In this document: in pieces, positions 12,328 through 34,632 of the stretch | Layout of the letters: each line of letters starts with the position of its first letter | Position numbering within the stretch: the first letter of the stretch is position 1 | Assembly (NCBI GenBank): GCA_009602725.1 | Contig: WELB01000043.1 | Location: forward strand, 10,149 to 45,356 | Source of the DNA: Spirogloea muscicola | Lineage: Eukaryota; Streptophyta; Zygnematophyceae; Spirogloeales; Spirogloeaceae | Direction of reading: 5' to 3' | Length of the DNA stretch: 35,208 nt | Translations under genes and position numbers: made by a program | The notes under the pieces: generated by a model | The model's input: only the letters and a program-made list of their open reading frames with translations | Database searches by the model: none | What the model was told of the DNA's origin: nothing

Positions 12328-12398
12328 GCTTCCCCTGGCCCCGTCTCGTACTTTGTTCGTCCTTTTTCGGGCTGGCTTTTCCCAGCCCCTATCCTTCA
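12328..12398 (+). mobile_element. Family C LINE 3' tail fragment
   Basis: Carries the family C end: CCCCTGGCCCC, then hairpin GGGCTGGCTTTTCCCAGCCC and CTATCCTTCAATG. Joined directly to the 5'-truncated start of the family B copy at 12399. Confidence 0.7.
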
Positions 12399-12645
12399 AT
12401 GTCCCGCAGGCGCGGAGAGCCGGCTGACTTCAACGCCGCAGGCTCGTGGGCTCGGGTATATCGTATGCGATTGTCCGTCTCCCTTATGCGGTCCATGGCG
12501 CACGCCTTGCATCTGCGTGCTGGCCGTGCTCTCGCTGCGGCCTCCGGCTTTCGTCAGGGGACAGTTTTCCGGCAGCTAGTCTGTCGGATGTGAGGCTCCT
12601 CACTCGTAAATACTGAGTGGTCCATCCTCCCCCGTTCTGACATAG

Positions 12646-13090
12646 AGAGAAGGGCTCGCCCATTGAGGATAGGGGCTGGAAACAGCCAGCCCAGAAAAGA
12701 ATGTACAAAGGACGAGAAGGGGCCAGGGGAAGTACGAAGAACAACAAGCACAGAAGAGAAACGAAGCAGCTACGAAGCACTCAGTAACCCCTGCTAAGCT
12801 GTCTCGGCCTCTCGCTGCGGCCTCCGGCTTTCGTCAGGGGGATAGTTTACCGGCAGCTAGTCTGTCGGATGTGAGGCTCCTCACTCGTAACTACTAAGTG
12901 GTCCATCCTCCCCCGTTCTGCCATAGCCTCTTCAGGCCCCGCAGTCGCTGCTTAGCTCGTAGTTTGGCCCCTTCGAACCTTGTCAATTCTTTTCGGGCTG
13001 GCTTCTCACAGCCCTTGCCCCCTTTGGGAGAGCCACTTCTTCTGCTAAGCAGCCTCAGGTCAGAGAGACTGGGTTCCTGGAAGCGGGTCC
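12646..13090 (-). mobile_element. Family C fragment inserted in family B, 8-bp TSD
   Basis: Inserted in opposite orientation, flanked by TGACATAG at 12638-12645 and 13091-13098. Minus-strand reading gives the family C tail (TTACTGAGTGCTTCGTAGCT, hairpin GGGCTGGCTGTTTCCAGCCC, GGGCGAGCCC). It is itself split by the family B copy at 12800-13041. Confidence 0.85.
12800..13041 (+). mobile_element. Family B copy inserted in the family C insertion, 9-bp TSD
   Basis: Innermost element of the nest, flanked by CTGCTAAGC at 12791-12799 and 13042-13050. It runs from the LINE C-terminal codons (AAASGFRQG, SLSDVRLLTRNY, stop TAA) to the precise 3' end GAGCCACTTCTT. No poly(A). Confidence 0.9.
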
Positions 13091-13213
13091 TGACATAGCC
13101 TCTTCAGGCCCCGCAGTCGCTGCTTTGCTCGTTTGGCCCCTTCGAACCTTGTCAATTCTTTTCGGGCTGGCTTCTCACAGCCCTTGCCCCCATTGGGAGA
13201 GCCACTACTTCTT

Positions 13214-13247
13214 GTACATGGCCACACATGGCCTCCCCATCTCTTAC
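13214..13247 (+). mobile_element. 34-base family A terminus
   Basis: GTACATGGCCACACATGGCC then CTCCCCATCTCTTA matches the last bases of the family A 3' UTR. It abuts the end of the outer family B copy. Confidence 0.65.
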
Positions 13248-13329
13248 TTCACGCAATCTACTCATTGGTATGTCGCGATTGTATTATCCATTGTGTCATT
13301 TATTTGTGTGTATAACTTTCTAAGACCAT

Positions 13330-13890
13330 CGGATGAGCTTACTTCTCAATCCCCCCCCTCCCCCCTCCATCAGAAAGGAACACGGGGGACACGTGGCCCA
13401 CTTGCGGGGGGACCGGGACAAGATCCACCGCCCCCACGGTCTTCGGAGCGCCGGCACCCGCAGGGGCTTCACGTGGCCCATCTGTGAGACGTCGACTCAG
13501 GTAATCGGACGGCAAGCGCCCGCTTCCGCGGGACCCGAGCTGGCCTGTCGGTGCCAGTCGTCGACTTATGCGCGCCGTCCGGCGGCTTCTCCGGGTGCAC
13601 CGTCACCGGCCGGCCGGGGTATCTCTTCGTCGGGCGGCATCTGCAAGACTCGCGGCAAGAGGCGGCTTTTCCGGACCGTTCCCGAGAGTTTCTGGCGGTC
13701 CACGGCCTCTCCAAAGCCCGACAAAAGGCGACCGTCGTCTGCACGAATCTGGCAGGGGAAGCTCCGTCATCGGGCGCTCGGCCCCCCGTCTGCTCGGCGC
13801 GCGCGTCGCCGCCGGCAGTGGCCCCCCACCGCCCCGCCGGGGCGCGCTGCCGATGACGCTGACTTGGTGAAGGGGGGGGCTGACAGCTGA
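13330..13890 (+). other. GC-rich open stretch, possibly retroelement-derived
   Basis: A frame open from about 13489 to 13856 reads VDLCAPSGGFSG, PGYLFVGRHLQ, FLAVHGLSKARQKATVV. I do not recognise it. Bases 13655-13760 recur more loosely at 28937-29047 between two family C fragments, which suggests a mobile-element origin rather than a host gene. Confidence 0.35.
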
Positions 13891-14070
13891 CGCCACAATG
13901 CCCTGACAGCTAACCCCAGCAGTAGACGACTTAGCTCAGTTGAGGTACGCTGCGCATTACTTAGAAGAACAGAGTGCGTGTGTATTAAGAGATGGGGAGG
14001 CCATGTGTGGCCAAGTACAAGGGCAAGCACATTGACAGACGTACGTCACCTGCTGCTAAGCTGACCCCGC

Positions 14071-15187
14071 TCAGTAACCACGAGTCAGCACATCGAGAGC
14101 GCTAACTGATGCCCGAATACCCGACGGCAATCGACAAGCTCTTGAGCTACCAGCTAAGGCTCCACTAGCTTTCTGATGCAACGCATGAGCCTGAGCTCGC
14201 TGCAGACAAGCTGACACTCGACGACGCAAGAATGACAAAGTAGGCTGCCGGCATGCCCATCTGAGCTGGAAGCATATCCTCACGTCGAGCATATCCCAAA
14301 CTTGCAATATTCTCAAGCAGGGTGTGGAAGCGAGGGCCCACGCAGCCGAAGTGTCAATTGCCGCCGGTAGGAGGTGATCGCTGCGGGGGCAGTCAGAGTA
14401 GTGTCGAAGCTTTCTCTGCTCAGCACCTCCCACTGCGAGGCCAGCAATGTGCTTCGATGCGGAACTCTTGTATGCCTCCGGCACCACCACATCAACCAAG
14501 GCTCGTGGGCGTCCGTCCGGTAACACCCACAATGTCCAGGGTGCGCCGGTGAAGGCGTCCCTGGGAATCCGTGGTGATGGGCATTACATTGCTTACTTCC
14601 ACAATGGTGCTGTAGCCGGCGTCGCGCATCAGGCCCGCCAGGGCGTCCTGTAGGAGATTATGGACGCCCACCACCTCAGGGCCTGTGGGACACCGCAGCA
14701 TGTGGGTGGCAAGGTCTCCGCCCTCCGCACAGAAGCCACACTCACACTGAGTTACTCCAATCAGGCAGGTCGGGGGCACGCCCAGGAACAGCTGGAGAAG
14801 CGTCCCGAATGCTTCAGGGCTGATTCTGAAAGCGTTGTGGATGGGGTGCGTTATGAGCCAGTCCGTTGCCCCAGGTGTTGCGAGCCATGTGAGACGTGCC
14901 AGACTCCTTGGATTGGTCAAGATATCTGGCATCCTCCTCAATGTCTTGCGACGCTCATCCTCAACTGCAGCAACGAGTCTGGCCTGTGCCCCTTTGTCTG
15001 ATGCTTGGGCAAGCGCTGAGAAGGGAGTGAAGAGGGTTTGCAGGGAGGGGAAGGAGCAGGTTGCTGACTCGCGGATGCTCCTCAATTGCACTTGGAATGC
15101 CAAGGAGCCTTCCTCCAACTCGGCTGCAGGGGGCCAGCCAGACAAGGGAAGCGCAAGGGGAGAAGGGAGGCAACCTGGTGCCAGCAA
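14071..15187 (-). pseudogene. LINE C-terminus: CCHC knuckle and restriction-like endonuclease
   Basis: Reading 15187 downwards: LLSALAQ-type helical linker, TWLATPGATDWL, the knuckle CECGFCAEGGDLATHMLRC (14750-14695), then RRTLDIV and, after a one-base frameshift near 14520, ALVDVVVPEAYK. The spacing D..DVV..K fits a PD-(D/E)xK nuclease fold as in R2-like elements. Ends SALDVLTRGY-TGA at 14071. The same order recurs at 31776-32150 in a diverged copy, which supports the assignment. Confidence 0.8.
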
Positions 15188-15209
15188 CCGAGAAAGGCTG
15201 CCTGCGCAG

Positions 15210-16881
15210 TGTGTTTAAGTGACCGGCAGCCCAGGCCGCCCATTCGTGTGGGAAGGGATGCCTGCAGGGAGGATGAAGGTGAGGGGAAGGATGGGTGTTG
15301 AATCAGGGAAGCCAGGGTTTGCAGGAGGGAGGTGTCGAACTCCTTGTACAGCTACCCCACCATGTCCGTTGGGGCGACTGTCCGCTGCAGGTAGCCCGCT
15401 CGTTGACCAATGCAGAGAGTAAGGATGGCCAGCACCAGCTGCGGATCTCCGAATAGAGGAAGGGAGGGAAGGGGGGCAAGGTGTTGCTGCAGACATTCAC
15501 GTGAGTCCTCCGCAACGTGGGATGGTGTGCCAAGGGGAACTTTGAGAACAGCCAGCCCATTGGCAGGGGTCTGGCCGCCTGGTGGGAGCTGGAGGTTGGT
15601 GGGGAGGCCGCGTGGTGACCATGCCACGTTCTTGGTGGGGCAACCCCGCAGGCCCATTGTGCTCAGTTCGTGTACGAGCAAGGGATAAGCCGCCATGACT
15701 TTTGACGGTGGGCCGATGATATGCGTGTCGTCGGCGTAGGAGGGGAAGAGGAGGTTGGGGTGCAGGCTCTGGGTGCGCCATAGTGCCCCGGAATGTGCCA
15801 AGGCGAAAAGTATGGGGCTGAGGGGATCTCCCTGGCTTGTGCCAGTTGTGGACCATAAGGTCGTCCAAGACTCCTCCGAACGCCACAGCAGCCGCCCTGG
15901 CCGGCCATAGGCCATGAAGAAATATGGGATCAAGTAAGGGAAGTGATCACGCAGCTCCTCCATGATGGCGCTGCGCTCCACAGTGTTGGACGCATTGGCT
16001 TTGTCCAGTCCAAGGACCATGTGTGATGGGGTTGACATCCAGTGCTGCACAGATCCCGTCGGCCTCTGCCCCGCAGGACGTGCCAGCACCAAACTGGTGG
16101 GGTGAAAAATGGGTGGACAGCTGGGACTTTAACTTGCCGCACAAAGCCTTGGTCACCAGCCGCATGATGACTTCCGTCATGGCGATGGGCCTCACACCAC
16201 CTGCCGGCTTGGCCAGAGCCAGCAGGTGGCTGGAGTTGAGAGCGTCGGCGATGCGGGGGGGAATGGTGGCTCTGGAGGTGTGCCGGCAGGTGGAGAGGAG
16301 CAGGGAGAAGCTTCTTTCGTCTCCATTTTGGAAGATGTCCCGTAGGTGCTCGAAGAGCCATCCAGAAGGCCTCCAGACACCGTTCGGGGGGCTTTGGTGA
16401 GGGCCGTGCGGAGCGCCTCTGCTGAGAGTTCAAGAGGAGTCGGGAGCTCGCCGACCCAGGGCACAAGAGGGTGCTGAGGAGGAGGATGCAGCTGGCGCAA
16501 GGTGGCCTCAGTGGCATCATTGTTTGCTGCCAAGGGGTCGGGACAGAGGGCCTGAGCGGCTCGAGAGAGCTCTCCTGCTCTACTAAAGCGTCTTGCACGC
16601 GCTAGGTTGCCAATCATGGACTGTTGAGAGGGCTGGTTGCGGGTGCCTCCACGTGCACGTCGTTCTGAGAGCGCGACCCGAGCGGCTGCTGCACGCTGCT
16701 GGGCCAGCTCCTCCCACTTGCCGCTGGCGAAGCGAGCCAATCTGTCCTGAAGGCATTTGCGGCCACCAACGCCAAAGGAGGAAAGAGGGCCAAGCACGAC
16801 CTTGGGAAAGAGCAGGTACAACGCCCAGGCCGCCTTGTCCAGAGGGTCAGCTTCCACGCGTGAGAGGATGGGCGTCAGCAC
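15210..16881 (-). pseudogene. LINE reverse transcriptase domain, frameshifted
   Basis: In order: SGWLFEHLRDIF, LNSSHLLALAKPAGGVRPIA, GLDKANASNTVERS, GTSQGDPLSPILFALA, SYADDTHIIGPP and MGGLGCRS. These are RT motifs 0 to 7, with YADD as the catalytic pair. Frameshifts lie in a C6 run near 16400 and near 16015; a TAG interrupts the frame near 15348 (MVG-stop-LYKEFD). Not translatable as one protein. Confidence 0.85.
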
Positions 16882-16896
16882 CTTGCAGCACCCACG

Positions 16897-17836
16897 TCAT
16901 GCCCATTCTGGAATGTGGCGTAGGTTGTGGAGGCCCTCGGGGATGATGAGGGGGGGGAGGTCCACTGTGGCTGCCCAATGCCAGCTCTCGGGAGAGGGAG
17001 ATGGTGGAGGACGGGCTGTGCCCGGCAGGTGCGACATTACTGCCTGCTCTTCACGATTCTGGTGGTTCTGGCAGTGTCGAGCATGAGCTCCCAACCTTCT
17101 TCTGTTGTTGAAACCGAGCTGGCAGCCCTGACAGGGGCCCCGCGTGCCTGGGGCCTCTCCGAGGCCAGCGTGGGCTGGGCGCTGTTGAGAAGAGCGGCCC
17201 TGCCGACGACGATGGCAGCCAGAGCGGCTTCCAGCTTGATGACAGCTTTCCACAATCCGCTCAGGCAGCGGCGGAGGGAGAGGTAACAGAGGAGGTGGAG
17301 GGAGCAACGGTGGCGGGCACTGGGGGATGAACTGGAGAGTGCAAGGGTGGAGCTGGGGGGGGAGAGGGACGGAGCAGAGCCAACAACCTCAGAGGCCGCC
17401 AGGTGGGGGAGTCACTAGATCCTGGTGGGCTGACGACAATGCCAACTCGCGGGTCCATGTTCGGGGTCTCGTGTCTGCATCCGAGGTGGCCGAGCTTGGA
17501 TGCGCAAGCAGCTGGGCTGGCTCGACAGGCGCAGACACTCCTACGCCAAGGAGCTCGGGCTCCGCTGTCGACGTGTGATGTCGTAGTCGCCGCAGGCGTG
17601 AGCACAATCTGAGGGCTGCGACCCTGGCTCGCGGCGGCCTCTGCACTCGCTGGAGCTGGGAGAGGGGGAGGAGCTGGAGGGGCCGCTGGGAGGTTGGGAA
17701 GGGTGGCCCCTGACGCAGTGGCGGCCCTCGACGCAGCAGTCGTGCTGCGGGTGCCGTAAGAGCGAGCGGCGCGCCGAGCTGCGCGAGCCGCCGCGGCTCT
17801 TAGCAGCCCCCAGCATGGCGTCGGGGCCGGCGGGGA
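16897..17836 (-). pseudogene. LINE N-terminal region with zinc finger
   Basis: A Pro/Ala/Ser-rich frame (17836-17261) is followed in another frame by CQGCQLGFNNRRRLGAHARHC (17131-17069), a CxxC-x12-HxxxC/H finger. N-terminal zinc fingers before RT bind the target DNA in R2-like elements. Two frames are used, so this part is also broken or spliced by recoding; the boundary with the RT frame is near 16890. Confidence 0.6.
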
Positions 17837-17850
17837 GGGTGGCTGTGAAA

Positions 17851-18104
17851 GAAGAAATGGCTCTCCCAATGGGGGCAAGGGCTGTGAGAAGCCAGCCCGA
17901 AAAGAATTGACAAGGTTCGAAGGGGCCAGCCAAACTACGAGCTAAGCAGCGACTTCGGGGCCATGGCAGAACGGGGGAGGATGGAGCACTCAGTAGTTCC
18001 GAGTGAGGAGCCTCACATCCGACAGACTAGCTGCCGGAAAATCTTCCCCCTGACGAAAGCCGGAGGCCGCAGCTAGAGCACGGCCAGCACGCAGATGCAA
18101 GGCG
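17851..18104 (-). mobile_element. Family B LINE 3' end, abutting the family A 5' end
   Basis: Minus-strand reading: ALHLRAGRALAAASGFRQG, SLSDVRLLTRNY, stop, UTR, hairpin GGGCTGGCTTCTCACAGCCC, GAGAGCCATTTCTT. Its 3' end meets the 5' end of the family A element in the same orientation, a head-to-tail join. Confidence 0.85.
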
Positions 18105-18171: not shown

Positions 18172-18320
18172 GCAATCGCGGCCAGATTTAACTGGTGGCT
18201 GGGAAAGGCCAGCCCAAAGGAATGGACGTGCTAAGGACTGAGACAGCAGCAAGCGGACACTCGGTGACCAGTAGAGGGCAGTCACTGTGAGTGGCCAGCC
18301 CAGACAAGAGCTTGTACAAA
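18172..18320 (-). mobile_element. Family E LINE 3' tail
   Basis: Minus strand: GTCTCAGTCCTTAGCAC, then hairpin GGGCTGGCCTTTCCCAGCC and the terminal CAGTTAAATCTGGCCGCG. Joined to family B at about 18105 through a short unassigned stretch. Confidence 0.7.
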
Positions 18321-18494: not shown

Positions 18495-18712
18495 AGCGCG
18501 GCCAGATTAACTGGTGGCTGGGAGAGGCCAGCCCAAAAGATTGGACAAGGTCTGAAGGAGTCGGAGTGCTAAGGACTGAGACAGCAGTAAGCGAACTCTC
18601 AGTAACCTCTCGTCAGTAGATGCAAATCTGAATAGCTAGCAGGCGGAAAGACGTCGCCCTGACGGAAGCCGGAGGCCGCCGCCAGAGCGCGGCCTGCGCG
18701 CAAGTCTCCCTG
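18495..18712 (-). mobile_element. Family E LINE 3' end with C-terminal codons
   Basis: Minus strand encodes GRALAAASGFRQGDVFPPAS, YSDLHLLTRGY, TGA, then GTCTCAGTCCTTAGCACTCC, the hairpin GGGCTGGCCTCTCCCAGCC and ATCTGGCCGCGC. It defines the intact sequence used to read the interrupted family E copy at 26494-27375. Confidence 0.8.
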
Positions 18713-20557: not shown

Positions 20558-20603
20558 CTACACGCCATGTGGAAACAACACTACACGCCATGTGGAAACA
20601 ACA
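20558..20603. repeat. Two 23-bp tandem units encoding the protease 2 C-terminus
   Basis: CTACACGCCATGTGGAAACA plus ACA, twice without mismatch. On the minus strand the units span the last codons (TWRVVLFPHGV) and the stop, so the C-terminus has been altered by the duplication. Confidence 0.85.
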
Positions 20604-23300
20604 CACCTGCTATTCCTCGCACTGCTGTTGGTGGTCAACGATCGGTTTTTGTGGTGGCCTGGTATGCGGGTGCCATTTCCACTCTTCTTGGGTGGGTGAT
20701 GGCCCTTGGGATGGGTGCCGTTGGCAGGTGCTGCGCTTGGCGCCTGGTGATGGCTCCTTGTATATGTGCCATTGGCAGGAGCTGGAGCTGCGCTTACTGG
20801 TGGGGCGGGAAGGCCACTATCTTGACTTGGGGAAGGTGAGCCTTCTGGTGAGCCATAGTAGGGCGATGGGCTAGCACTTCCCTGAGGTGAGCCCAAGTGC
20901 TCGTAGCACTCCGGAGGACAATAGTGGTAGTCACCATAAGATGACGGACTAAGGTAGCTGTCGCTCGAGCCACTCGGGCTAGCAGCTGGAGCCAAAAAGA
21001 GATGAGGACAAAGGTGCTGACAATAATCTAATGATAATGGTGGCGGAGCTGGCGGGTTTTGTGCCACTGATACAGGAGGAGCAGGTGGTGCTTCAACAAA
21101 GCCGCCAACTCGCGCATTGCAATCAGCTGTTGACCACCCGATGCGATTCTTGGGCTCATCCCAGATCATAAGCCTGTTCTGTTGGTGGAGGCTCCCCAGA
21201 ATGTTGAAAGCGATCACACTAGGTATAAAGCTTAGGCACACTGTAGACGAATTCTTCCTCACGACATACTGCTGCCCCGTGGACAAGAACGGTGCATCGC
21301 CTCCAAGGTCAAACTCAAGTGGCGGGAAGAGAATGTCCAGATCTGCAGCTGTCTTTGTCTGGATGTGGTAGCATACAACTTCCGTATCGTCAAGACGTAA
21401 GGGAGAAGTAAATAAATCTCCGGACACTTGTAGAGCCGCTACTATCTCCTGGTGAATCTGAGGTGACACTATGCTGAACAAGGAGCCGGTGTCAAGTATG
21501 GTGGGGATCCAAGCCACAGAGGCAATCGGAAGGTGGATTGTGCCTAAGGAGCAGTTGATCACATTGACCTCCCAATGGTCCTGGCTGTAGTCGTCAAAAC
21601 CAAGAGGAGCGTATGTAATGCCCGGTGGAAGAGTAGAGCCGAACTCAAGAACCCCAACATTGGTCAACGCTGTCTCTCTGCCCGTTAAGCAGGTTGTGAA
21701 AGCCCCGCCAAAGTGCTTTGTCATCTGCAAGCATAAGCAGCGAGAGACTGCACAATGAAAATGGCTTTCAGTGCAAGTATGATTGGATGCTTAATTCTCA
21801 CAAATGCCAAGGACAACCAAGTGTCTAGCTTGTACCTCTTTCCATGATGGTCAAAGTAAGGGATGCAAGCAAAGATCACTGAAGAGAGTAGAAGCTATTC
21901 TCAGTGTTCAGCAATATCGTCCTCAAATCAAGGCAAGGAGGATGCAAGCTTGACATAGCCAGCAGAAGCATGGATAGACACCTGGCCCGAAAACGACTTA
22001 AAGCTTGGGCCAAGGCCTAATATGCCTCCAACAAATACAAACTCGCCACGAGCTGATGTTGTTGCACCGCTACAACCAAAGTGAAGGGGCCAGGTGTGGA
22101 TGGACTGGCCGTCCTTGCTGACTACGTGCACAACATCGGTCGCCAGATGCCCATAAGTCGTAGTGCCATCCGCATACGAATATTGATAACCACAGTTTTT
22201 ATTGGTATTATTGCTGTAATCCATGTAATACCTGTATGAGCTGTCAAAGCAGTCTACAGTTTCATAACCCTCATCCTCTGAATCATATTCAACTTGAAGG
22301 TGGAAGTAGTGGCACGTGTCTTGGCCACGGGTGACGTTGCTATGTGTGGACGATTTGTGTGGATCAAAGGGCGGAAGACTCTAATTGTAGCACTGAAAGC
22401 AAGGCTCACACTGCCAAGCACTGATCACAGTCAGAAAGATTTCAGGAGCACATTCTGTTTGGTGAGCCTTCACCATGCTGGCCTAATTTTCCAACAATGG
22501 AATGGACTTGGACACTAGACAATTTGCAAATACTGCTGCCCCTACAAACCTAGCTCAGCCAATTACGAAGGTGCAAAGAAACTGCCAAAGAAGCCCCCAG
22601 ATGCTGGAGTTGGTTCCCTCCTTAAGGAGCTGCACACATAAGGGTGGGCGCCAGTGCTAGCACCTGTGACCACACAAGGTCGCTTCCAGTGTCAATGATC
22701 AGCTGCATATGCTGCGCAGGACGACGAATACCAGTAGCGTGAGCATTCAAATAAACAGCCACGGTTTTCATTCTCGTTCACATGTATGCATTGGAATGTT
22801 CTTGCACTAATGGCAGTATTCCCCACAGAAGAGCAGTGCACGTGAGCTCCACAAGCTGCCAAGGTGATTCAAGCACACACATATAATGCATATGAGATGG
22901 AAGTGTGAGAGAGTCAAGCCTTGCAATGTCTTGTCTGGGTTTGCCTTTCAACCCTCCAAGCACATTCAGGAAGCTGTGCTAATGCTTCTGATAGTGAAAA
23001 GCTGAACCTGAGCCGGAGTATCCAGGTATACGTCTGTGTAGTATAGTACTGTGGGAGGCCAGCAGTGAAGCCTGGGTATACCACGGCCCCGAAAGCTGCT
23101 GGCCCACTTGCTGGACTTGGTGAAAGGGCGACTGTGGAGGTGGACTTCGGCTGGCCGCTTGAACGCCCGCGTAAGATCTGTGGTGCTCGAGGTCCTTGTG
23201 GCTTGACCAGTTGTTTTCCTCTTGAGTGCTGGCCAAGCAAGTCTGCTCGCACCTGGGGAGGTTGTCACAGGTGGCCACAGTGCAAGCAACAGCATCTGGT
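20558..23300 (-). pseudogene. Nepenthesin-like aspartic protease 2, with in-frame UAG and frameshift
   Basis: Paralogue of protease 1. Clear minus-strand exons: a 5' exon ending at 23008 (YPGFTAGLPQ, YLDTPAQ), 22711-22664 (MQLIIDTGSDLVWSQ), 22410-21982 (CEPCFQCYN, YSYADGTTTYGH, GGILGLGPSFKSFSGQ) and 21724-20558 (GGAFTTCLT, ILDTGS, NILGSLHQQNRLMIWD, Pro/Ser/NGT-rich tail). Three introns match protease 1 in position and phase, and the 48-base DTGSD exon has equal length. Both catalytic DTGS sites remain. Two faults: TAG at 22383-22381, where protease 1 and nepenthesins have Gln, and an apparent 5-base insertion (TATAC) near 23036 that shifts frame between PQY and YTDVYL. Start codon unresolved; an ATG near 23295 gives a hydrophobic MLLLALWPPV segment. 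Either a recent pseudogene or a recoded gene. Confidence 0.8.
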
Positions 23301-23632: not shown

Positions 23633-23642
23633 TTTTTATATA
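23633..23642 (-). promoter_or_regulatory. TATA box, probable promoter of protease 2
   Basis: Minus-strand TATATAAAAA between the gene X stop (23726) and the protease 2 5' exon. It is the only strong TATA upstream of that gene. Confidence 0.55.
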
Positions 23643-23725
23643 TTGGCGACCCAGGGGCATCCATGTGTGACATGAAAAATCTGAGATTGGAGAGCAGCTT
23701 GCATCAGATTGACCATAATCATACA

Positions 23726-24674
23726 TTAAGCTCTGGCCTGCCTGCCATGGGAGAATGTGAGTCCCAGAGCCAAGTCTAAGGAAAGTATCAGGTCTACAGT
23801 CTCTTCAAACCAGTCATCATTATTATAAATTTGCCGCAGACTTGCAAGCCTCACAGATACGAACTGGTGAGAGCATGGTTGCCTAAGTCATGAAGACCTT
23901 GCTGAGGGAGCAGCTTCACTCATGAGCTTGCGCTGCACTCTCCCATTACTGTCCACCTTAACAGATGGCATTGAGATTCATCAGTGACAAGTCAACAACA
24001 GCTCAGGAAAAATTGACACTGGTGTGTGCACACGAACTTTCCAGGCAAGCACTTGGTAATGGAATGTCATGGCGTGTGACCACGCTATGTCCAAGTCCAC
24101 GTTAGGACTTGTCAACTGATGACTGCTCCTACAAGGAGAATGAGGAGATAGACTGCCAAGCCAAGTAAGCTGAATGTGGGTAGCATTAGAGGAAAGCAAA
24201 GCCCTCACCTGATCAGCAAGAAGATCACTGGGGCTCACAGCTCCTGGAACAGCATACATGCAAAGCCACCAGTTACAAGCAATGAGCCTCACCGGAACAG
24301 GCCGTTATGATCTGAGCTGTGACTCCTGCGGTGAAGTGTTGGGAATGTAGCGGCCATGATGAGCATGCTGACGTGAACTCTAAATCAAGTCCTGCTTAGG
24401 CATCCTGCAATGAATTGTCTGACCGGCTTGGCTTGCAATGCTGTAGAAAAATGCACCTTAGTCTCAATGCTACTATGTCATGCATGACACGAAAGTCAAA
24501 TGCACGTGACGGGAGGAAGTACCTTGTCCTCCAAGCACTGTAGTAAGCATGAGGCACAGGTAGCCAGTGAACCTGCCCATGGCACATGATCAAGCTGCTC
24601 ATTATCTCATCATATGATACAGAGCTAGAAGAGAACACGTCTATTTGGAGATTGCCCGCAAAGATGAAGTCAAA
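23726..24674 (-). CDS. Gene X copy 1: unrecognised spliced gene, four 3' exons
   Basis: Minus-strand exons 24674-24523, 24287-24209, 23956-23898, 23849-23726. Phases fit throughout (2, 0, 2), and the same splice sites and nearly the same exon lengths occur in copy 2, so the model is well supported although I do not recognise the product. The protein reads FDFIFAGNLQIDVF, MCHGQVHWLPVPHAYYSAW, CMYAVPGAVSPSDLLADQ, VQRKLMSEAAPSAR, YNNDDWFEETVDLILSLDLA, then TAA: about 137 residues. The C-terminal LILSLDLALGLTF is a possible amphipathic or short membrane helix. An acceptor (TGCAG) precedes 24674, so there are upstream exons, probably in 24975-25430. Downstream on the same strand lie the TATA box and protease 2. 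Confidence 0.6.
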
Positions 24675-24974
24675 CTGCATTCAGTTGCTCAGTCCGCAGC
24701 CTGGCAATCTTTTGGAGTTTCGTAATACTGCCGCCAGACGCTGTCCAGCCATGGCAGTCAGGCCACTTGGTACGACCCTTTTCCTTTTAGTTGCAGCTAC
24801 ATACTCCTCCTCAAAGACAGGACTTAGCACAATGAGGAGCCCTGTGAATTACTCTGTGACGATCGCTCGCAGAGCAGAGCTCTCAGACATAGTGGCAGAG
24901 AACATGAGAATAAGTATGGTAAGGAGTTTCAGGCCGCCATTTCTGCATGGAGTTGTTAGCCGTCTGTGGCCTCG

Positions 24975-25430
24975 CAGGTGACAGTGTGAGGAAGTTTACA
25001 AGAGACGGTTGCACTGCAGTTTGCGAGTTCCGGCCATCGCGAGCGCAATTGGACCTTTTGCTGCCAACGTAGGTGACGGTCCTGTCCGTCCAGGACACGA
25101 TTGTCAGCGGGATGCGCAAAGCCAGCTGCCATGCAAGCCCTTGCGGGCGCAATTCTTTCCATCAGTTTACGTTACGATCCGTCACAGGAGGCTGCGTGCG
25201 CGAATATCTCGGCCTCCCTGCAATGATCAGTCACTCACAGCCACAGGGCCGGCTTCGTGAGGAAAGCTGCGACCGCATCGCGGCTGCCGGCCAGCCGTGC
25301 GAGGCCAGCGCCAAGAGCCAAGCCCCCTGCGCCTCGGCGGCGGTGGCGGCGGCGGCGGCGCGGCGGGCGGCGGCAATGGCCTGGGCCGCCACCTCCCCTC
25401 CCGGATTGCAGGGGGCCATCCAGGACTGGG
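24975..25430 (-). other. Probable 5' exons of gene X copy 1, unresolved
   Basis: Conserved with copy 2: an ATG near 25425-25400 followed by an Ala-rich frame (dup-specific indels), a strong GTGAGT donor at about 25248, a block QGLAWQLALR-x-x-LTIVSWTDRT, and an aligned donor (GTAAAC here, GTAAGC in copy 2) near 24990. One-base indels between the copies leave the reading frame uncertain. Confidence 0.35.
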
Positions 25431-25612: not shown

Positions 25613-25727
25613 TTCCTACGATCAATGGAGAGAAGGGCGCGGCGGTGCGCATGCAATGAAAGGGTGGCCAATGCAAGCCAAAATTTCCTCATTACTATTT
25701 GTTTATTTCTCAATATTCCTTCAAGAA

Positions 25728-25982: not shown

Positions 25983-26400
25983 GAAAGGGCTCGCCCATTG
26001 AGGATAGGGGCTGGAAAAAGCCAGCCCAGAAAAGAATGAACAAAGGACGAGAAGGGGCCAGGGGAAGTACGAAGAAAAACAAGCACAGAAAAGAAACGAA
26101 GCAGCTACGAAGCACTCAGTAACCCCTGCTAAGCAGCCTTAGGTCAGAGAAGAAGTGGCTCTCCCAATGAGGGCAAGGGCTGTGAGAAGCCAGCCCGAAA
26201 AGAATTGACAAGGTTCGAAGGGGCCAAAGTACGAGCTAAGCAGCGAGGTCAGAGAGACTGGGTTCCTGGAAGCGGGTCCCCTGGCCAGAGCCAGAGGCAG
26301 CAGCGAGGGCTCTGCCTGCACGCAGGTGCAGCGCGCGGGCCATAGACCTCTGCAGCGAGACGGCCAAGCGCATGCGGTACACACAAAAGGGAGGCAATAG
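25983..26400 (-). mobile_element. Family C LINE 3' end, host of a family B insertion
   Basis: Minus strand: VYRMRLAVSLQRSMARALHL, RAGRALAAASGSGQGTRFQE, then after the insertion the end of the frame and UTR, hairpin GGGCTGGCTTTTTCCAGCCC, TCAATGGGCGAGCCC. The continuous form is seen at 32340-32560, which confirms that 26150-26245 is an insertion. Confidence 0.85.
26150..26245 (-). mobile_element. 96-bp family B tail inserted in family C, 9-bp TSD
   Basis: Flanked by AGGTCAGAG at 26141-26149 and 26246-26254. It holds only the last 96 bases of family B, ending in the exact GAGCCACTTCTT terminus. Very short 5' truncation, as expected from incomplete reverse transcription. Confidence 0.92.
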
Positions 26401-26424: not shown

Positions 26425-26493
26425 TAAGAAGAAGTGGATCTCCCCATGGGGGCAAGGGCTGTGAGAAGCCAGCCCGAAAAGAATGACAAGAAA
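26425..26493 (-). mobile_element. Family B terminus, with a family E terminus before it
   Basis: Hairpin GGGCTGGCTTCTCACAGCCC and GGGGAGATCCACTTCTT on the minus strand. Bases 26394-26424 are a family E end (CAGCCACCAGTCAATTTGG). Confidence 0.7.
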
Positions 26494-26568: not shown

Positions 26569-27017
26569 GAGTGCCCCTTCTCGGCAGCCGCTGGCTGGAT
26601 CTCATTCAGCGGCTTGCTCGCCAGGCCATTGACCGGCGGCCGGGTCTGCCAGGGGCGATGCCCGGCTTCAACGCCGCCGGGTCGCTCGCACAAGTCTTCC
26701 GCATGCGCCTGGCCGTATCGCTTCAACGCTCCCTTGCCCACGCCGTCCATACGCGCGCAGGCCGTGCTATGGCCGCCGCCTCTGGGTCTCGGCGGAGCGC
26801 CTCTTTCCCTGCAGCGAGCTACTCAGACCTGATGTTGCTCACTCGTGGGTACTGAGCTTTCCTCTGCATCATTTCTGTGTTCTGCAGTATGTTGTAGTGT
26901 ATTCCTTTCTCCGGCTCCTCTTGCTTTGGCTTTGGACATTGTCCATTCTTTTTTGGGCTGGTTTGGCCAGCCCCTCTTTTCTATGGGCGCGCTTTTCTTC
27001 TTGGGAGTGCCCCTTCT
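26569..27017 (+). mobile_element. Family D LINE 3' end inserted in family E, 15-bp TSD
   Basis: Flanked by ATCTCTTTGCAGCGG at 26554-26568 and 27018-27032. Encodes SRWLDLIQRLARQAIDRRPG, GFNAAGSLAQVFRMRLAVSL, AMAAASGSRRSASF, SDLMLLTRGY, TGA, then UTR and hairpin GGGCTGGTTTGGCCAGCCCC. The insertion starts with GAGTGCCCCTTCT, which is also its last 13 bases. Confidence 0.92.
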
Positions 27018-27138: not shown

Positions 27139-27320
27139 GAAAGAAGTGGCTCTCCCAATGGGGGCAAGGGCTGTGAGAAGCCAGCCCGAAAAGAATTGAC
27201 AAGGTTCGAAGGGGCCAAATTACGAGCTAAGCAGGGACTCCGGGGCCTGAAGAAAAAGAGAGAGAGATAGAAGAAAGCAAATGCTTCGGGGCCTGAAGAG
27301 GCTATGGCAGAACGGGGGAT
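27139..27320 (-). mobile_element. Family B tail inserted in family E, 8-bp TSD
   Basis: Flanked by CTTGCATC at 27131-27138 and 27321-27328. Ends (minus sense) in the B terminus with two extra bases. Contains an internal 40-base purine-rich insertion within a repeated GGGGCCTGAAG. Confidence 0.88.
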
Positions 27321-28040: not shown

Positions 28041-28300
28041 GGGCATCCGATTGTCTGACTTGCGGCTCCTGACTATACCTTTTTCTGCGCTGGCCAATCA
28101 CAGCCATCTCCCTCGACTGGAAGAGTCTTCCTAAGCTGCTTTCCAACACTGGTTAGAAGCAGTCCAGAGAGCCCACTTGCTGACGTCTTAGCCATTAGTA
28201 TCTTGCTTTTTGCGCAAACTAGCCCTTTTAGACCTTGTCCATTCCTTTGGGCTGGCCTCTCACAGTCACCCGTCAATCTGGAAGCGCTTTTCTTTCAAAC
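28041..28300 (+). mobile_element. Mixed LINE tails: SSDLRLLT type, then family E
   Basis: 28042-28110 (CATCCGATTGTCTGACTTGC) resembles 34670-34738. 28140-28290 resembles family E: AGAGAGCCCACTTGCTGACG, CCATTCCTTTGGGCTGGCC, CAGTCACCCGTCAATCTGG. Confidence 0.55.
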
Positions 28301-28785: not shown

Positions 28786-28935
28786 GAAGGGCTCGCCCAT
28801 TGAGGATAGGGGCTGGAAGGGAGGCCAATAAAGAGTGAACAAAGGACGAGAGGTCCGAGAAACTTGGCTCCTGGAAGCGGGTCCCCTGGCCAGAGCTAGA
28901 GGCAGCAGCGAGGGCTCTGCCGGCACGCAGGTGCA
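28786..28935 (-). mobile_element. Family C fragment with internal deletion
   Basis: Minus strand: LHLRAGRALAAASSSGQGTR, FQEPSFSDL, then a deletion of the stop region and UTR, then CCAGCCCCTATCCTCAATGG and GCGAGCCCTTCTTTC. Confidence 0.75.
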
Positions 28936-28936
28936 A

Positions 28937-29047: not shown

Positions 29048-29260
29048 TGCTCTTGCTCTGGCCAGGGGACCCACTTCCATGAGCCTAGCTTCTCTGACCT
29101 GAGGCTGCTTAGCAGGGGTTACTGGGTAATATGTAGCTGCTTTGTTTCTTGTTATTCTTGTTTTTCTTAGCGCTTCCCTGGCCCCCTTCTCGTGCTTTGT
29201 TTATCCTTTTTTGGGCTGGCTTTTCCAGCCCCTATCCTCAATGGGCGAGCCCTTCCCTTC
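29048..29260 (+). mobile_element. Family C LINE 3' end
   Basis: TGGCCAGGGGACCCACTTCC, SDLRLLSRGY codons (stop changed to TGG), UTR, hairpin GGGCTGGCTTTTCCAGCCCC, TCAATGGGCGAGCCC. In inverted orientation to 28786-28935. Confidence 0.8.
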
Positions 29261-29497
29261 TGCGCCGTCGCCGGCCGTGGGCCGGAAAATCGCTAGGATG
29301 TCAGCGGACAATTGGCTGCTTTTGAAGACCAGACAATTCAATCACAACAAGCTCCATAGAGCTCCTCCTTCCAAGCAAGCACTCAATAGCAAGCACCCTT
29401 ATTGTCTGGTCTGCTGTAATAAGCCAACTTCAGCTTAGGTGGGCGTACCATCGTACGCTGAAAAGCAGATAGCCATTCTTGTGAAGCACGCTGGTCC

Positions 29498-29510
29498 TTT
29501 TATTATATTG
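29498..29510 (-). promoter_or_regulatory. Copy of the protease 2 TATA region without its gene
   Basis: Minus-strand AATATAATAAAAGG aligns with the TATA box at 23633-23642, but has lost the strict TATATAAA form and has no protease body downstream; retroelement debris follows at 29280. Confidence 0.5.
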
Positions 29511-29686
29511 GCGACCCAGGGGCATCCATGTGTGACATGAGAAATCTGAAATTGGACAGCAGCTTGCATCAGAATGGACATAATTACACACAGAGCTCTA
29601 ACCTGCCTGCCACAGGAGAGTGCAAGTCCCAGAGCTAAGTCTTGGGAAATGTATCAGGTCCACAGATTTCAAGCTAGTCACCATCA

Positions 29687-30545
29687 TCAGCAAAAATGCT
29701 GCAGAATTGCAAGCCTCACAGGTACGATCTGGTAAGAGCAGGGTTAACGAAGTCACAAAGACCTTGCTGAGGGAGCAGCTTCACTCATGAGCTTGTGCTG
29801 CAATCTTTTATGACTCTCCACCTTCAAAATAGCATTGAGCTTCATCAGTGACAGGTCAACGATAGCTCAGGAAAAATTTGACACTGGTATATGTACACGA
29901 CGTTTTCAAGCAAGCGCTCGGTAACGATATGTCATGGCGTGTGACTCTGAGTCCATGCTAGGCTTTGTCAGAATATGTTTGCCCTGGCAAGGAGAATGAG
30001 GAGATAGACTGCCAAGCCAACTAAGATAAATGTGGGTTGGAGGAAGGCAAAGCCCTCACCTGATCAGCAAGAAGACCAAGTCTGGAGCTCACAGCTCCTG
30101 GAACAGCATACATAGAAAAGCCACCAGTTATATAAGCCACCAGCTCACTGAACCTCACAGGATCAGGCCTTCTGAATCTGAGCTGTGACTTCTGTGGCGA
30201 AATGTTGGGAATGTAGCGGCCATGATGAGCATGCTGACGTGACTGCTAAATCGAGTCCTCTGCTTTGGGCGTCCTGCAATGAATGTCTGACCGGCTTGGC
30301 TTGCACTGCTGTAGATAAGTGCACCTTAGTCTCAACGCTATTCTATAAAGCATGACACGCAAGTCAAATGCACGTGACGGGTGGAAGTACCTTGTCTTCC
30401 AAGCACTGTAGTAAGCATGAGGCATAAGCAGCCAGTGTACCTGCAGCCCATTGCACATGATCAAGCTGAGTGTTATCTCACCATACAATACAAAGCTAGA
30501 GAGAACACGTTTGACGTCTAAGAACAGCAATGAGATGAAATCAAA
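29687..30545 (-). CDS. Gene X copy 2: unrecognised spliced gene, shortened end
   Basis: Minus-strand exons 30545-30391, 30153-30060, 29821-29763, 29714-29687. All splice sites align with copy 1; exon 1 differs by a 3-base insertion and exon 2 by 15 bases, both keeping frame. The product reads FDFISLLFLDV, MCNGLQVHWLLMPHAYYSAW, ELVAYITGGFSMYAVPGAVS, RLGLLADQ, LQHKLMSEAAPSAR, LAILQHFC then TGA. Compared with copy 1 the last exon stops after 8 residues, losing the WFEETVDLILSLDL segment, so it may be decaying. Upstream exons unresolved, as in copy 1. Function unknown. Confidence 0.5.
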
Positions 30546-31321
30546 CTGCAGTCAGTTGCTCTCATTCCGCAGCCAGGCAATCTGTTGGAGTTTCGTAACA
30601 CTGCCCAAGGACACTTTCCAGCCATGGCAGTCAGGCAACTTGGCACTAAAGACACCCCCTCAAAGACAGGACTTAGCACAGGGCCCTGTAATCAACTATG
30701 TGACGGCTACTCAAAGAGCAGAGCTCTCAAACATAGTGGCAGAGAACAGAGAACAAGTATGTTAAGAAGTTGCAGGCCGCCATTACTGCATGGAATTGTT
30801 AGCCGTCTGTGGCGTCGTAAGTGACAGTGTGGGGAAGCTTACACCAGACGTTTGCATTGCAGTTTGCGGGATCCGGCCATTGTGAGCGCAATTGGGGCTT
30901 TGTGCTGGCAATGGTGGTGATGGTCCTGTCCGTCCAGGACACGATTGTCAGCGAGAAGCGCAGAGCCAGCTGCCATGCAAGCCCTTGCGGCGCGATCCTT
31001 TTTCCATTAGCCTACAATGCGATCTGGCACGGGAAGCTTCGTGCGCGAACATCTCAGATCCGTGCGCGAATATCTCGCGGCCTCCGTGCAATGAGAGGCA
31101 CTCACAGCCACAAAGCTGGCGTCGAGAGCGCGCGCGGCTTGCCGGGACTGCGACGGCGTCGCGGCTGCCGGCCAGCCCGTGCGAGGCCAGCGCCGAGAGG
31201 CAAGCTCGCGAGCGAGGCCGGCTGCGGCGGCGGGGCACACTCGATTACCCTGGGATCGCAGTATGGCCATCCAGGACTAGGGGACGATCTGGCGGCAGAC
31301 GAGGAAGGCGGAACGGAATTG

Positions 31322-31531: not shown

Positions 31532-31737
31532 AAGAAGTGGCTCTCCCAATGGGGGCAAGGGCTGTGAGAAGCCAGCCCGAAAAGAATTGACAAGGTTCGA
31601 AGGGGCCAAACTACGAGCTAAGCAGCGACTGCGGGGCCTGAAGAGGCTATGGCAGAATGGGGGAGGATGGACCACTCAGTAGTTACGAGTGAGGAGCCTC
31701 ACATCCGACAGACTAGCTGCCGGAAAACTATCCCCCC
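31532..31737 (-). mobile_element. Family B LINE 3' end
   Basis: Minus strand begins GGGGGGATAGTTTTCCGGC, SLSDVRLLTRNY-stop, full UTR, hairpin, GAGAGCCACTTCTT. It abuts the open family C segment at 31745. One of the best preserved B tails here. Confidence 0.88.
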
Positions 31738-31744
31738 CCAAATT

Positions 31745-32560
31745 AGAAAGGAGGGCGCCGCGCAGGCCTCGTTGAGTGGCCTTCCGCGATGGGGCCGCCT
31801 GTTCCATGGAGTGCTGTGCCCGGCACGATGACCCTGCGGAGCTGGCTGCCCACATGCTCCGCTGCGCGCACGGGGGCGAGCGGACCGATTCACACGACCT
31901 TCTGCGACACGCCATGCAGCGTGTGTTCCTGGAGGCCGGCTACCAGGTGGCATTGGATAATACGACAATTATGCCCATCCAGCGGGGGCGCCGACGGACA
32001 GGTTCACACCCGCCGCGCTGACCTAGTTGCCATCCCGCCCGGAGGAGGTCCGCGTATCATTGCAGATTGCGTCGACTCCGCCAACCCCGCAAAGTCGGCG
32101 ACGCTCGCCGGGCACGAGGTCGCTTTGGCGGCTCGGAGTAAGGAGCGCAAGTAACTCCGACCACCCTCCAGGCGATGCCTTCGCCGCCCTGGCCATTGTC
32201 GTTCACGGGGCCTTCGGCAGTGGCTGGCTGGATCTCCTCCAGCGGCTTGCCGGCAGGCCATCGAGCGGCGGCCGGGTTCGCCAGGCTTCAATGCTGCAGG
32301 CTCCCTCGCTCAAGTCTTTCGAATGAGAGACTGGCGGTCTCGCTCCAGCGCTCTCTGGCTCTGGCCAGGGGACCCGCTTCCAGGAACCCAGTCTCTCTGA
32401 CCTGAGGCTGCTTAGCAGGGGTTACTGAGTGCTTCGTAGCTGCTTCGTTTCTTTTCTGCGCTTGTTGTTCTTCGTACTTCCCCTGGCCCCTTCTCGTCCT
32501 TTGTTCATTCGTTTCTGGGCTGGCTTTTTCCAGGCCCTATCCTCAATGGGCGAGCCCTTC
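31745..32560 (+). pseudogene. Family C LINE: CCHC, restriction-like nuclease and 3' tail
   Basis: Plus strand: GAAQASLSGLP, then CCARHDDPAELAAHMLRC (zinc knuckle), HDLLRHAMQRVFLEAGYQVA, RRADLVAIPPGGGPRIIADC, SATLAGHEVALAARSKERK, and after a frameshift SDHPPGDAFAALAIVVHGAF, SGWLDLLQRLAGRP, LAVSLQRSLA, EPSLSDLRLLSRGY-stop, UTR and hairpin. The D(L/I)V..ADC/DVV..K pattern matches the PD-(D/E)xK nuclease of the family A element. At least three frameshifts. Confidence 0.82.
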
Positions 32561-32745
32561 CCCCTCTCAGGCTCATGCGGTCCACACACGCGCTGGCCGC
32601 GCTATGGCTGCTGCCTCAGGGTCTCGGCAGAGTGCCGCTTCTCCTGCTTCGAGTTAGTCTGATTTGCTGTTGCTCACTCGTGGTTACTGAGCATCCATCT
32701 GCATCATTTCGTGCCTTGGTGTGTATTTTTGTCTTTCCTGGCACT
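32560..32745 (+). mobile_element. Family D LINE 3' fragment
   Basis: RAMAAASGSRQSAASPASS, an in-frame TAG where other copies have Tyr, SDLLLLTRGY, TGA, then CATCTGCATCATTTCGTG as in 26858-26877. A second GGGCGAGCCCTTCCC tail follows at 32770. Confidence 0.7.
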
Positions 32746-32908
32746 AGTTTGTGGCCTTTGCTTTTTAATGGGCGAGCCCTTCCCGCTGTGTGCTTTTAAT
32801 GCGAAGCTGTCAGCGCGACGCGCGTGCGCATCTCCATCTCCAAATTTTTCATGGAAAGGCGGTGACCACCGGTAACCACCTTTCTTCTTGGCAGGGAGGG
32901 CGAAGGAC

Positions 32909-33056
32909 ATGGAGTGTGTATTAAGAGATGGAGGGCCTGTGTGGCCAAGTACAAAGGCAAGCACATTGACAAATGTACGTCACCTGCTGCTGAGCTGACC
33001 CTCTCAGTGACCACGAGTCAGCACATCGAGGTCGCTAACTGATGCCCGAACACCGA
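32909..33056 (-). mobile_element. Family A LINE 3' tail
   Basis: Minus strand: CATCAGTTAGCGACCTCGAT, GTGCTGACTCGTGGTCACTGA, UTR, ACAGGCCCTCCATCTC, TTAATACACACTCCAT. Follows a family B terminus (33069-33101) head to tail. Confidence 0.85.
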
Positions 33057-33068
33057 AGGGCGGAGGGA

Positions 33069-33271
33069 GAAGCGGCTCACCCAATGGGGGCAAGGGCTGT
33101 GAAAGAAGTGGCTCTCCCAATAGGGGCAAGGGCTGTGAAAGCCCAGCCCGAAAATGATTGACAAGGGTTCGAAGGGGCCAAATGACGGAGGGGCCGAAAG
33201 CGCTGTCGAAATGGGTGTAGGATGGACCACTCAGTAGCTACAAGGGACGAGCCTCAAATCGATAGAATCTA
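33069..33271 (-). mobile_element. Two family B tails in tandem
   Basis: 33103-33245 holds UTR, hairpin and GGGAGAGCCACTTCTTTC; 33069-33101 repeats only the last part (CACAGCCCTTGCCCCC, GGGTGAGCCGCTTCT). Same orientation. The partial repeat of a 3' terminus fits a template jump. Confidence 0.75.
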
Positions 33272-33911
33272 TCGGGCTGGCAGAGGCCAGCCTGAAAAGA
33301 ATGGACAAAATTTACGGAGCCAAGAAGATGCTACAAAGAAAAAACTATACAGCTAGACACAAGACGACGCGAATTTTCCTTGTATTTGAAACAATCGAAG
33401 GCCAAAATCGAAGGAAAAGGGAAGCTCAGTACGACTGAGCAGCAGCAAGTCCGAGTAACTCAAAGCTGGGTAAGAGGCACTCCGACTAGACCCAAATGCA
33501 GCCATAGCGCCAAGGCGCCAAAGAAAGAGGTGCCGAAAAAGGACTACACTACAAAACACGAGCGCGGCCTGCTCACGAGTGGACGGCGTGAGCCAGGGAG
33601 CGCTGGAACGAGACTGCCAGCCGCATGCGAAATACCTGCGCTAGCGAGCCGGCAGCGTCGAAGCCGGGCAGCTCCCCTGGCTGACCCGACCGCTGATCGA
33701 TGGCCTGCCGGGCCAGCCGCTGGAGGAGATCCAGCCAGCGACTTGCCAAAAGCCCCATGGCCATCAATCGCCAGAGCCGCGAATTCATCACAAGCAGGGT
33801 GGTCGGCGTACGTACGCACCTTGACTCGGGCCGCCAGGCCGACCGCGTGCCCGGCGTTCGACGCCGATCTGGTGAGGTTGGCGAAGTTGACGCAGCCGGC
33901 GGTCGGGGGAA
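33272..33911 (-). mobile_element. Family D LINE 3' portion, copy d1
   Basis: Minus strand: CVNFANLTRSASNAGHAVGL, ARVKVRTYADHPACDEFAAL, SRWLDLLQRLARQAIDQRSG, GFDAAGSLAQVFRMRLAVSF, and, after an inserted UTR-like segment (33545-33480), ALSYSDLLLLSR-type end, then hairpin GGCTGGCCTCTGCCAGCCC. Its truncated 5' end abuts the 3' end of copy d2. Confidence 0.78.
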
Positions 33912-34556
33912 GTGCGCGCCCATAGAGAAGAGGGGCTGGCAAAGCCAGCCCAAAAAAGAATGGACAATGTCCAAAGCCAAAGAAAGAGGAGCCGGAAAAA
34001 GACTACACTACAAAACACTGCAGAACACATAGACGATGCAGAGGGAAGCTCAGTACCCACGAGTGAGCAACATCAGGTCTGAGTAGCTCGCTGCAGGGAA
34101 AGAGGCACTCCGCCGAAACCCAGAGGCGGCGGCCATAGCACGGCCTGCTCGCGTGTGGACGGCGTGGGCAAGGGAGCGTTGAAGCGATACGGCCAGGCGC
34201 ATGCGGAAGACTTATGCGAGCGAACCGGCGGCGTTGAAGCCCGGGCATCGCCCCTGGCAGAACCGGCCGCCGGTCAATGGCCTGGCGGGCAAGCCGCTGA
34301 ATGAGATCCAGCCAGCGGCTGCCGAAAGCCCCGTGTACATCGCCAGGGCCGCGAATTCATCCCCCACCGGGCGGTCACCACATCCGCGATGATGCGGGAC
34401 CGCCTCCAGACGGGATGAATGGAGTGTGTATTAAGAGATGGAGGGCCTGTGTGGCCAAGTACAAAGGCAAGCACAATTGACAAATGTACGTCACCTGCTG
34501 CTAAGCCGACCCGCTCAGTAATCACTCCGGGCGGGATGGCGGGAGGGGCAGGAATC
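33912..34556 (-). mobile_element. Family D LINE 3' portion, copy d2, host of a family A insertion
   Basis: Minus strand: AIPSGGG-PAIIADVV (nuclease core, split by the insertion), DEFAALAMYTG, SRWLDLIQRLARQAIDRRPV, LA-VFRMRLAVSLQRSLAHAV, RAMAAASGF-type segment, SDLMLLTRGY-stop, UTR, hairpin, CTATGGGCGCGC at 33914. Head to tail with d1 and with the tail at 34556. Confidence 0.82.
34418..34531 (-). mobile_element. 114-bp family A tail inserted in family D, 7-bp TSD
   Basis: Flanked by CGGGATG at 34411-34417 and 34532-34538. Removing it restores the nuclease codons AIPSGGG of copy d2, matching AIPPGGG at 32030. It starts at the family A stop codon and ends ACACACTCCATT. Confidence 0.9.
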
Positions 34557-34632
34557 GCGCGCCCATAGAGAAGAGGGGCTGGCAGAGGCCAGCCCAAAAA
34601 GAATGATGGACAAAATGGAGGGAGGGCAGGCA
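34556..34632 (-). mobile_element. Family D 3' terminus
   Basis: Minus strand: CATTCTTTTTGGGCTGGCCT, hairpin, CTCTTCTCTATGGGCGCGC. Joined head to tail to copy d2. Confidence 0.75.

Follow-up and report, generated by a model that had tools for sequence, protein, structure and literature searches.

Along a 35,208-nucleotide stretch of the streptophyte alga Spirogloea muscicola (contig WELB01000043.1, positions 10149-45356; hereafter, the window), we found many 3' ends of long interspersed nuclear elements (LINEs) that carry a predicted hairpin. We read families B, C, D, and E as one group of sister algal LINEs in which a 3' module would be the RNA handle for the element protein and the short copies would come from early cDNA stops; we give this reading a probability of about 0.7. 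The evidence that carries it is the homology of the elements, the grouping of B-E, the constraint on the module, the scattered 5' ends of the copies, and the target-site duplications around them.

In the mechanism that we propose, each open reading frame (ORF) of B-E ends in the same C-terminus, followed by a fast-changing untranslated region (UTR) and by the conserved module of about 60 nt near the transcript end. Transcripts would end in the module plus CUUUCUUC. The element protein would bind the module and place the RNA end on the nicked target, with the short CU-rich end probably sitting where cDNA synthesis starts. Since the stem is kept almost letter for letter while the loop and the bases after the stem vary by family, general binding of the stem and family choice by the loop are expected. 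Finally, cDNA synthesis would usually stop early, leaving thousands of copies of about 26-470 nt.

Coding regions and relationships of the families

We used the reverse transcriptase (RT) of the window's broken A copy as a query on the genome (153,112,186 bases in 471 contigs) and obtained at least 149 matches with 147 of 1,579 candidates scored, many of them in open frames of 1,200-1,450 aa. A single long N-free frame was read, stop to stop, in each fetched copy: 1,267 aa in A, 1,350 in A2, 1,271 in B, 1,406 in C, 1,521 in E, and 1,453 in F. For families A, B, C, D, E, and F, the one copy scanned per family had an RVT_1 score above the Pfam cut-off (42.8-50.7 bits vs. 29.6).

The first-pass annotation described families with different coding ends. 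This holds for the DNA and fails for the proteins, which in the families, A and G included, end in RAGRALAAASGxRQGxxFxxxSxSDLxxLTRGY-stop or a close variant. Thus, the coding ends are homologous. Trees of the RT and of the C-terminus –with a midpoint root only– set apart (A,A2), (F,G), and (B,C,D,E). Support for the B-E group was 100/100 with ten rows and 100/99 with twelve, with no resolved order inside it. B, C, D, and E are 66-70% identical in protein sequence among themselves, 49-53% to F, and 43-48% to A; the RT of G is 50-51% identical to those of B-E and is placed with F. By these comparisons, B, C, D, and E make up one LINE group of four sister families, to which F, G, and A, with hairpins of their own, are more deeply related.

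The RT may be closest to that of R2. In a profile search against PDB with nine copies, R2 proteins came out best (E 2.8e-6 and 3.7e-6), followed by chain 8c8j 'RNA-directed DNA polymerase' and LINE-1 ORF2p near 1e-3. Like the R2 group, which has a restriction-like endonuclease (RLE: R2, R4, NeSL, HERO, CRE), our elements have a long ORF and a mid-frame RT; further candidate likenesses are a weak N-terminal zinc-finger match in B (PF00096, 16.1 bits, below the cut-off of 25.2) and C-terminal Cys/His residues followed by D-x14-D and K. The N-terminal parts of C and E had no PF00096 match, and full-length Pfam scans of the frames of B, C, and E gave no match to an apurinic-type endonuclease. The alignment of the C-terminal domain has invariant C25, C27, H40, C44, D95, D110, and K140, which we read as a putative Cys/His knuckle and a putative PD-(D/E)XK-type endonuclease motif; against PDB sequences, the domain gave no match beyond two chance-level hits. 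The elements differ from the R2 group in that their insertions are dispersed rather than in one target: a single insertion target is not supported by the flanks of 66 unique copies, which diverge past the pyrimidine end. The endonuclease fold is putative, and membership of the R2 group is tentative. Some HERO members are also unspecific in target, according to PMC4640811.

One RT mobilizing all families had been proposed at first. It is not needed, because A, A2, B, C, E, and F each have their own N-free long frame. A narrower possibility is that D moves in trans. Scoring covered 150 of 1,659 candidates for the D RT and 150 of 13,145 for its C-terminus, and no intact D frame was found among those listed. 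Among the 150 scored RT candidates, D-like matches (at least 80%) had frames of at most 941 aa, except three above 2,800. The scored C-terminus matches included 13 D frames of at least 1,000 aa; nine were fetched and none was intact, their length being due to N; the N-free stretch preceding the C-terminus never exceeded 231 residues. Gaps of about 4 kb lie directly upstream of several D C-termini, where the RT would lie (L126, L128, L131, and L132).

We consider it unlikely that one or few RTs move several families in trans via the common stem, with D carried by the B, C, or E proteins. The lack of an intact D frame in this search would fit it, as would the nearly identical stem core in B-E and the likeness of four sampled D copies to the window's D copy (98-99%). 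However, since the gaps adjoin several D C-termini, an intact D may be hidden in them, which lowers the odds, and 9 of the 13 long frames were fetched. Moreover, loops and bases 3' of the stem differ by family, and six families have their own long frame. There is also a precedent in zebrafish: according to PMC4176376, ZfL2-1 and ZfL2-2 each need their own tail stem-loop, the stem being recognized generally and the loop specifically, and exchanged tails fail. A bolder version would make the stem the common currency of co-resident families: B, C, or E proteins would also move D RNAs, D's own RT would possibly be dead, dead families would multiply in a guild with a shared tail, and the RT would leave at such an early point that insertions of about 30-40 nt become commonplace. 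We regard it as improbable, a little more so than the plain trans reading.

Sequence and pairing of the 3' module

In B, C, D, and E, the module follows one order: an TTGTCCATTCTTTT-like lead, GGGCTGG, a short and mostly pyrimidine loop, and CCAGCC(C) or CAGCCC. Then comes GGGCGAGC, GGGCGCGC, GGGAGWGCC or GGCCGCGC, usually followed by 8-12 nt of pyrimidines. The GGCTG..CAGCC core is nearly invariant in these families, whereas loop length and sequence and the bases 3' of the stem are family-specific: the loop is TTGTT or CTTGT in B, CTTTG in C, CTTTTC or like in D, and CCTTTC or like in E. F and A have other GGC..GCC hairpins, distinct from those of B-E, that of A being a smaller GGCC..GGCC form. 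The GGCTG..CAGCC hairpin of G is GGCTGGCTTTCACAGCC, close to that of D. Since G is placed with F in the trees, the core hairpin may predate B-E, although this is suggestive only.

The families had been described as ending in a hairpin and a short end without poly(A). The absence of poly(A) held in all 66 unique copies; the proposed terminal GGG did not hold for E, whose terminal element is GGCCGCGC, and most copies add a pyrimidine end. This end is about 8-12 nt in most B-F copies (91-98% pyrimidine at positions 2-8, a fraction of 0.53 at position 13) and is missing in a few of the 66.

We counted tails in the whole genome with the core pattern of each family (28 bases for B), allowing up to three mismatches on both strands and using the reversed pattern as control. 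B had at least 7,860 tails (3,891+3,969), D at least 4,993 (2,516+2,477), and E at least 4,370 (2,174+2,196), and the F core had 1,371 matches. All reversed controls gave 0, so these numbers are far beyond chance. No relative was found in viral contigs.

The module is under sequence constraint. We compared 23 lineages with readable C-termini over a 60-nt module in 176 between-family pairs, with one partner shuffled as control. Module identity between families was 69.9% (shuffled, 48.6%), as compared to 64.3% for the last 40 codons (52.7%) and 58.9% for the UTR between ORF and module (54.6%, or 55.2% in the repeat comparison), which is near noise. Module and coding end had first been located by motifs inside themselves, and the comparison was repeated without those letters: the module without its 8-nt anchor reached 66.1% (47.7%), and codons -40 to -11, which exclude the locating motif, 64.9% (53.1%). 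In this comparison, conservation of the module equals or exceeds that of the coding sequence, and the adjoining UTR stays near the shuffled level.

The pairing of the module is a different matter. The tail alignment had 39 rows cut to 36, leaving out one chimeric row (B_L028) and two near-duplicates (B_L043 and D_w2), and the ends of some D rows and of one C row were shifted by one base. In the five core pairs of the stem, over 35 distinct B-E tails, seven changes keep a wobble pair and four break a pair; the pairs at the outer and inner end of the stem are missing chiefly in E and D (17 cells). Stem changes that preserve G-U or U-G pairs are also seen in the C subfamilies L049, L067, L053, L072, L065, and L069. 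Genome-wide, behind an exact ATTCTTTT lead, six copies changed both sides of the C-G pair, four of them to U-A and all six on a GGGTTGG background that is already present in family C. At the U-A pair there were five matches, of which four were read as loop matches and one as a true A-U. The resulting five compensated double mutants at the two pairs tested, four of them on GGGTTGG, are too few to argue selection on pairing. A fold clearly better than that of shuffles was confined to some of the tails: z was -3.3 and -3.8 in two C copies, -2.3 and -1.5 in two B copies, and -2.1 and -0.8 in two A copies. A base-paired form of the module is nevertheless likely, because the complementarity is present in all four families, although covariation gives no proof of it.

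Several points weigh against a structured RNA handle. None of the seven stem pairs was altered on both sides in the 35 tails, and compensatory changes were the test set beforehand by the first-pass annotation. Paired cells in the stem amounted to 91.4%, vs. 91.5% in the shuffled control. D (z -0.5 and -0.7) and E (-1.4, -1.1, and +0.15) do not fold clearly better than shuffles, and an outer stem is strong in the folds of B and C only, being weak in D and E. Besides, the handle is a predicted one, and its likeness to known stringent-type tails is one of position and conservation, not of covariation or function. The claim that the tails are the signal for target-primed reverse transcription survives in part: 5' truncation, RT domains, duplications, and module constraint fit it, while the compensatory changes are essentially absent.

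Two further helices were considered and set aside. The outer stem (GTTCATT/AATGGGC in B, GTCCAT/ATGGGC in C) was rejected as a shared covarying helix, because between-family strand swaps gave no cognate advantage; the mean was -12.7 kcal/mol for the E 5' strand with the B 3' strand and -3.0 kcal/mol for E with E. A 3-bp mini-hairpin 3' of the stem had both-side changes in eight sequences at one pair, at the family level, which is too little to rely on.

Conservation of sequence rather than of pairing would also fit a module that acts in transcript 3'-end formation or RNA stability, with the RT starting at whatever end results. The position of the module near the very end of the element and the lack of poly(A) after it in the 66 copies point the same way. 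Nonetheless, lineage-specific loops and ends track their RT families, which counts against this alternative without being decisive; we consider it unlikely.

The handle that we favor, for which the zebrafish pair above is a precedent, would resemble the stringent-type tails of the L2 clade (ZfL2-1, ZfL2-2, and UnaL2), where a stem-loop at the 3' end is conserved beyond its surroundings, copies begin there, and the loop is family-specific. Here, by difference, families that share 66-70% protein identity keep the stem in sequence and show no compensatory changes, the end has a short CU tract instead of TGTAA-like repeats, and the nearest RT in PDB is R2.

Short copies and their origin

The 5' ends of the copies scatter. 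Among 77 copies of B, C, D, E, and F (a set that leaves out L001-L026, L041-L080, and copies reaching an edge), they lie 26-469 nt from the module end, with a median of 114, quartiles of 62 and 197, and 13 copies at 50 nt or less; the ORFs alone take 3.8-4.6 kb. Copy lengths are lower bounds where the reference lacks the UTR of that subfamily, and two D copies at 72 nt have a common head.

Target-site duplications were counted from the junctions in 52 of 66 unique copies (the others were short of context or had no contiguous match) and in 38 of 40 copies of a D and E sample (two reached the edge of the fetched sequence). Duplications of at least 8 bp flanked 13/52 and 8/38 copies (swapped controls, 2.7% and 1.6%), and those of at least 6 bp flanked 24/52 and 18/38 (12.3% and 8.5%). 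Most began 4-11 nt 3' of the module, namely 16/24 among the 52 copies (duplications of 6 bp or more) and 8/12 among the D and E copies (7 bp or more). Therefore, the element itself contributes part of the pyrimidine end and seems to finish in a short CU-rich tract. This count replaced a first duplication search (21/92, with B/C sites counted twice; control 201/1,840). A head-to-tail junction pattern was uninformative (10/77 vs. 524/4,000 in the control).

The first-pass annotation expected the short copies to behave like SINEs (short interspersed nuclear elements). Instead, all 80 copies measured were colinear with LINE 3' ends up to the 5' junction (40/40 in a first sample and 40/40 in the D and E sample, one copy with only 30 nt of context), and 57 of the 77 usable copies ran beyond 62 nt, past the module. 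Among 18 copies whose 5' break lies 45-80 nt from the end, common heads occurred only in the two D copies of one subfamily and in one overlap at the same locus. No fixed non-LINE 5' head was found in the samples measured, copies shorter than the module being uninformative. Independent transcripts with a borrowed tail would explain the many copies of 30-250 nt, yet the scattered 5' ends and the lack of a common foreign head make this very improbable. The short copies thus resemble LINEs truncated at the 5' end rather than SINEs, and the scattered ends together with the duplications fit target-primed reverse transcription with very early stops.

At the lower limit, a 35-nt B copy has a 12-bp duplication (L032) and a 30-nt F copy a 16-bp one (L022). 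Micro-insertions of about 29-44 nt holding only the last part of the tail were seen in B and F (L032, L022, L027, and L028) and in D and E (L087, L113, and L120); six of the seven have flanking repeats of 6-16 bp, L113 being below the listing threshold. At the 3' end of L006, an A2 tail is followed by tiny B and D tail pieces head-to-tail, which serial insertion into the pyrimidine end or template jumping in one event could explain.

Short or truncated elements with LINE tails are known in other green algae. Among green algal LINEs, Zepp and ZeppL (L1 clade) are often truncated at the 5' end and form nested arrays of 3' ends (PMC8226300). By contrast, Zepp is listed in the L1 clade with poly(A) repeats (PMC3747384), and our elements have pyrimidine ends, with no Pfam match to an apurinic-type endonuclease in the frames of B, C, and E. 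The SINEX / RandI (Dualen) pairs of Chlamydomonas also include algal short elements with a LINE 3' tail in common (PMC3747384); SINEX are SINEs in their own right that end mostly in (ATT)n or (CTTT)n, whereas the short copies here appear to be truncated LINEs.

The elements form an apparently R2-like LINE group whose truncated copies number in the thousands; the principle is already known and the setting is new. We recognized no description of these elements in the open-access PMC literature, and within it the LINE group and the extreme shortness of its copies appear new. Sister LINEs with a constant stem, different loops, and matching proteins are a natural series for asking, by swaps, how a LINE protein picks its RNA, and such swaps would address an R2-like lineage rather than L2. 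Moreover, the abundance of very short insertions with duplications is a large genomic record of early termination of target-primed cDNA synthesis.

Copies and other features in the window

We located the modules by percent identity to one probe per family. The B, C, D, and E tails are present where they had been annotated, on both strands, and A has its GGCC..GGCC form.

B modules lie on the minus strand at 12654-12710 (94.7% to the B probe), 25989-26045 (96.5%), and 28791-28844 (87.5%), and on the plus strand at 32499-32555 (93%), at 12351-12401 with an incomplete 3' end (90% to probe positions 1-49 of 56), and at 29195-29250, where the probe match belongs to a copy of about 200 nt with a 9-bp duplication, CCCTTCTGC, from the duplication search. 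D modules are at 12976-13034 (98% to the D probe) and 13145-13203 (100%) on the plus strand and, on the minus strand, at 17859-17917, 27148-27206, and 31539-31597 (100% each), 26436-26490 (94.6%), and 33110-33166 (89.5%). Another minus-strand match, at 26157-26215, is a short D copy nested in a B copy with TCTCTGACCT on either side, a 10-bp repeat read by eye and kept outside the duplication counts.

A 5'-truncated, 407-nt C copy lies on the plus strand (26582-26992), with a 15-bp duplication, GGGAGTGCCCCTTCT, from the duplication search; it encodes a 90-aa C-terminus ending in SDLMLLTRGY (translated from 26583-26852) and carries its module at 26935-26992 (94.8% to the C probe). Two other C modules are on the minus strand at 33914-33971 (100%) and 34557-34605 (94%). 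E modules were found on the minus strand at 18177-18227 (94% to the E probe) and 18496-18552, the latter by probe match in a copy with a 9-bp duplication, ACAGGGAGA, from the duplication search; a degraded one is on the plus strand at 28231-28287 (87.7%).

The broken A-family coding region (14071-17100, minus strand) has an RT with YADD (PF00078, E 1e-5 at 15352-16128, 25.8 bits, below the cut-off of 29.6) and a C-terminal domain with Cys/His and a D-x-D-like motif. The 3' end of this copy is the GGCC-hairpin tail at 13978-14026 (98% to the A probe), and further minus-strand A tails are at 32914-32960 and 34424-34470 (93.9% each), 10506-10552 (85.7%), and 11764-11810 (79.6%). An F tail is at 25636-25679 on the minus strand (86.7% to the F probe). 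Outside the segment annotated at first, G tails with the GGCTG..CAGCC hairpin lie at 575-621 (minus strand, 89% to the G probe) and 4400-4440 (plus strand, 90%); family G was also seen at L051, L079, L121, and L122.

Tails also occur in tail-to-tail inverted repeats, at window 34745-34796 and at the 3' ends of L017 and L048, as if one copy had entered the end of another in the opposite sense. A lower-GC stretch (23541-25058 and 29406-30901) recurs piecewise, at 86-90% identity and a distance of about 5.86 kb, and apparently lies outside the LINE families. On the minus strand, 20558-21790 is an open frame with a TAXi_C / aspartyl protease match (PF14541, E 1.6e-13). Finally, a green algal host is most likely, since the chlorophyll a/b-binding family has 68 exon-wise matches in the genome and the two that were read resemble green-lineage LHCII.

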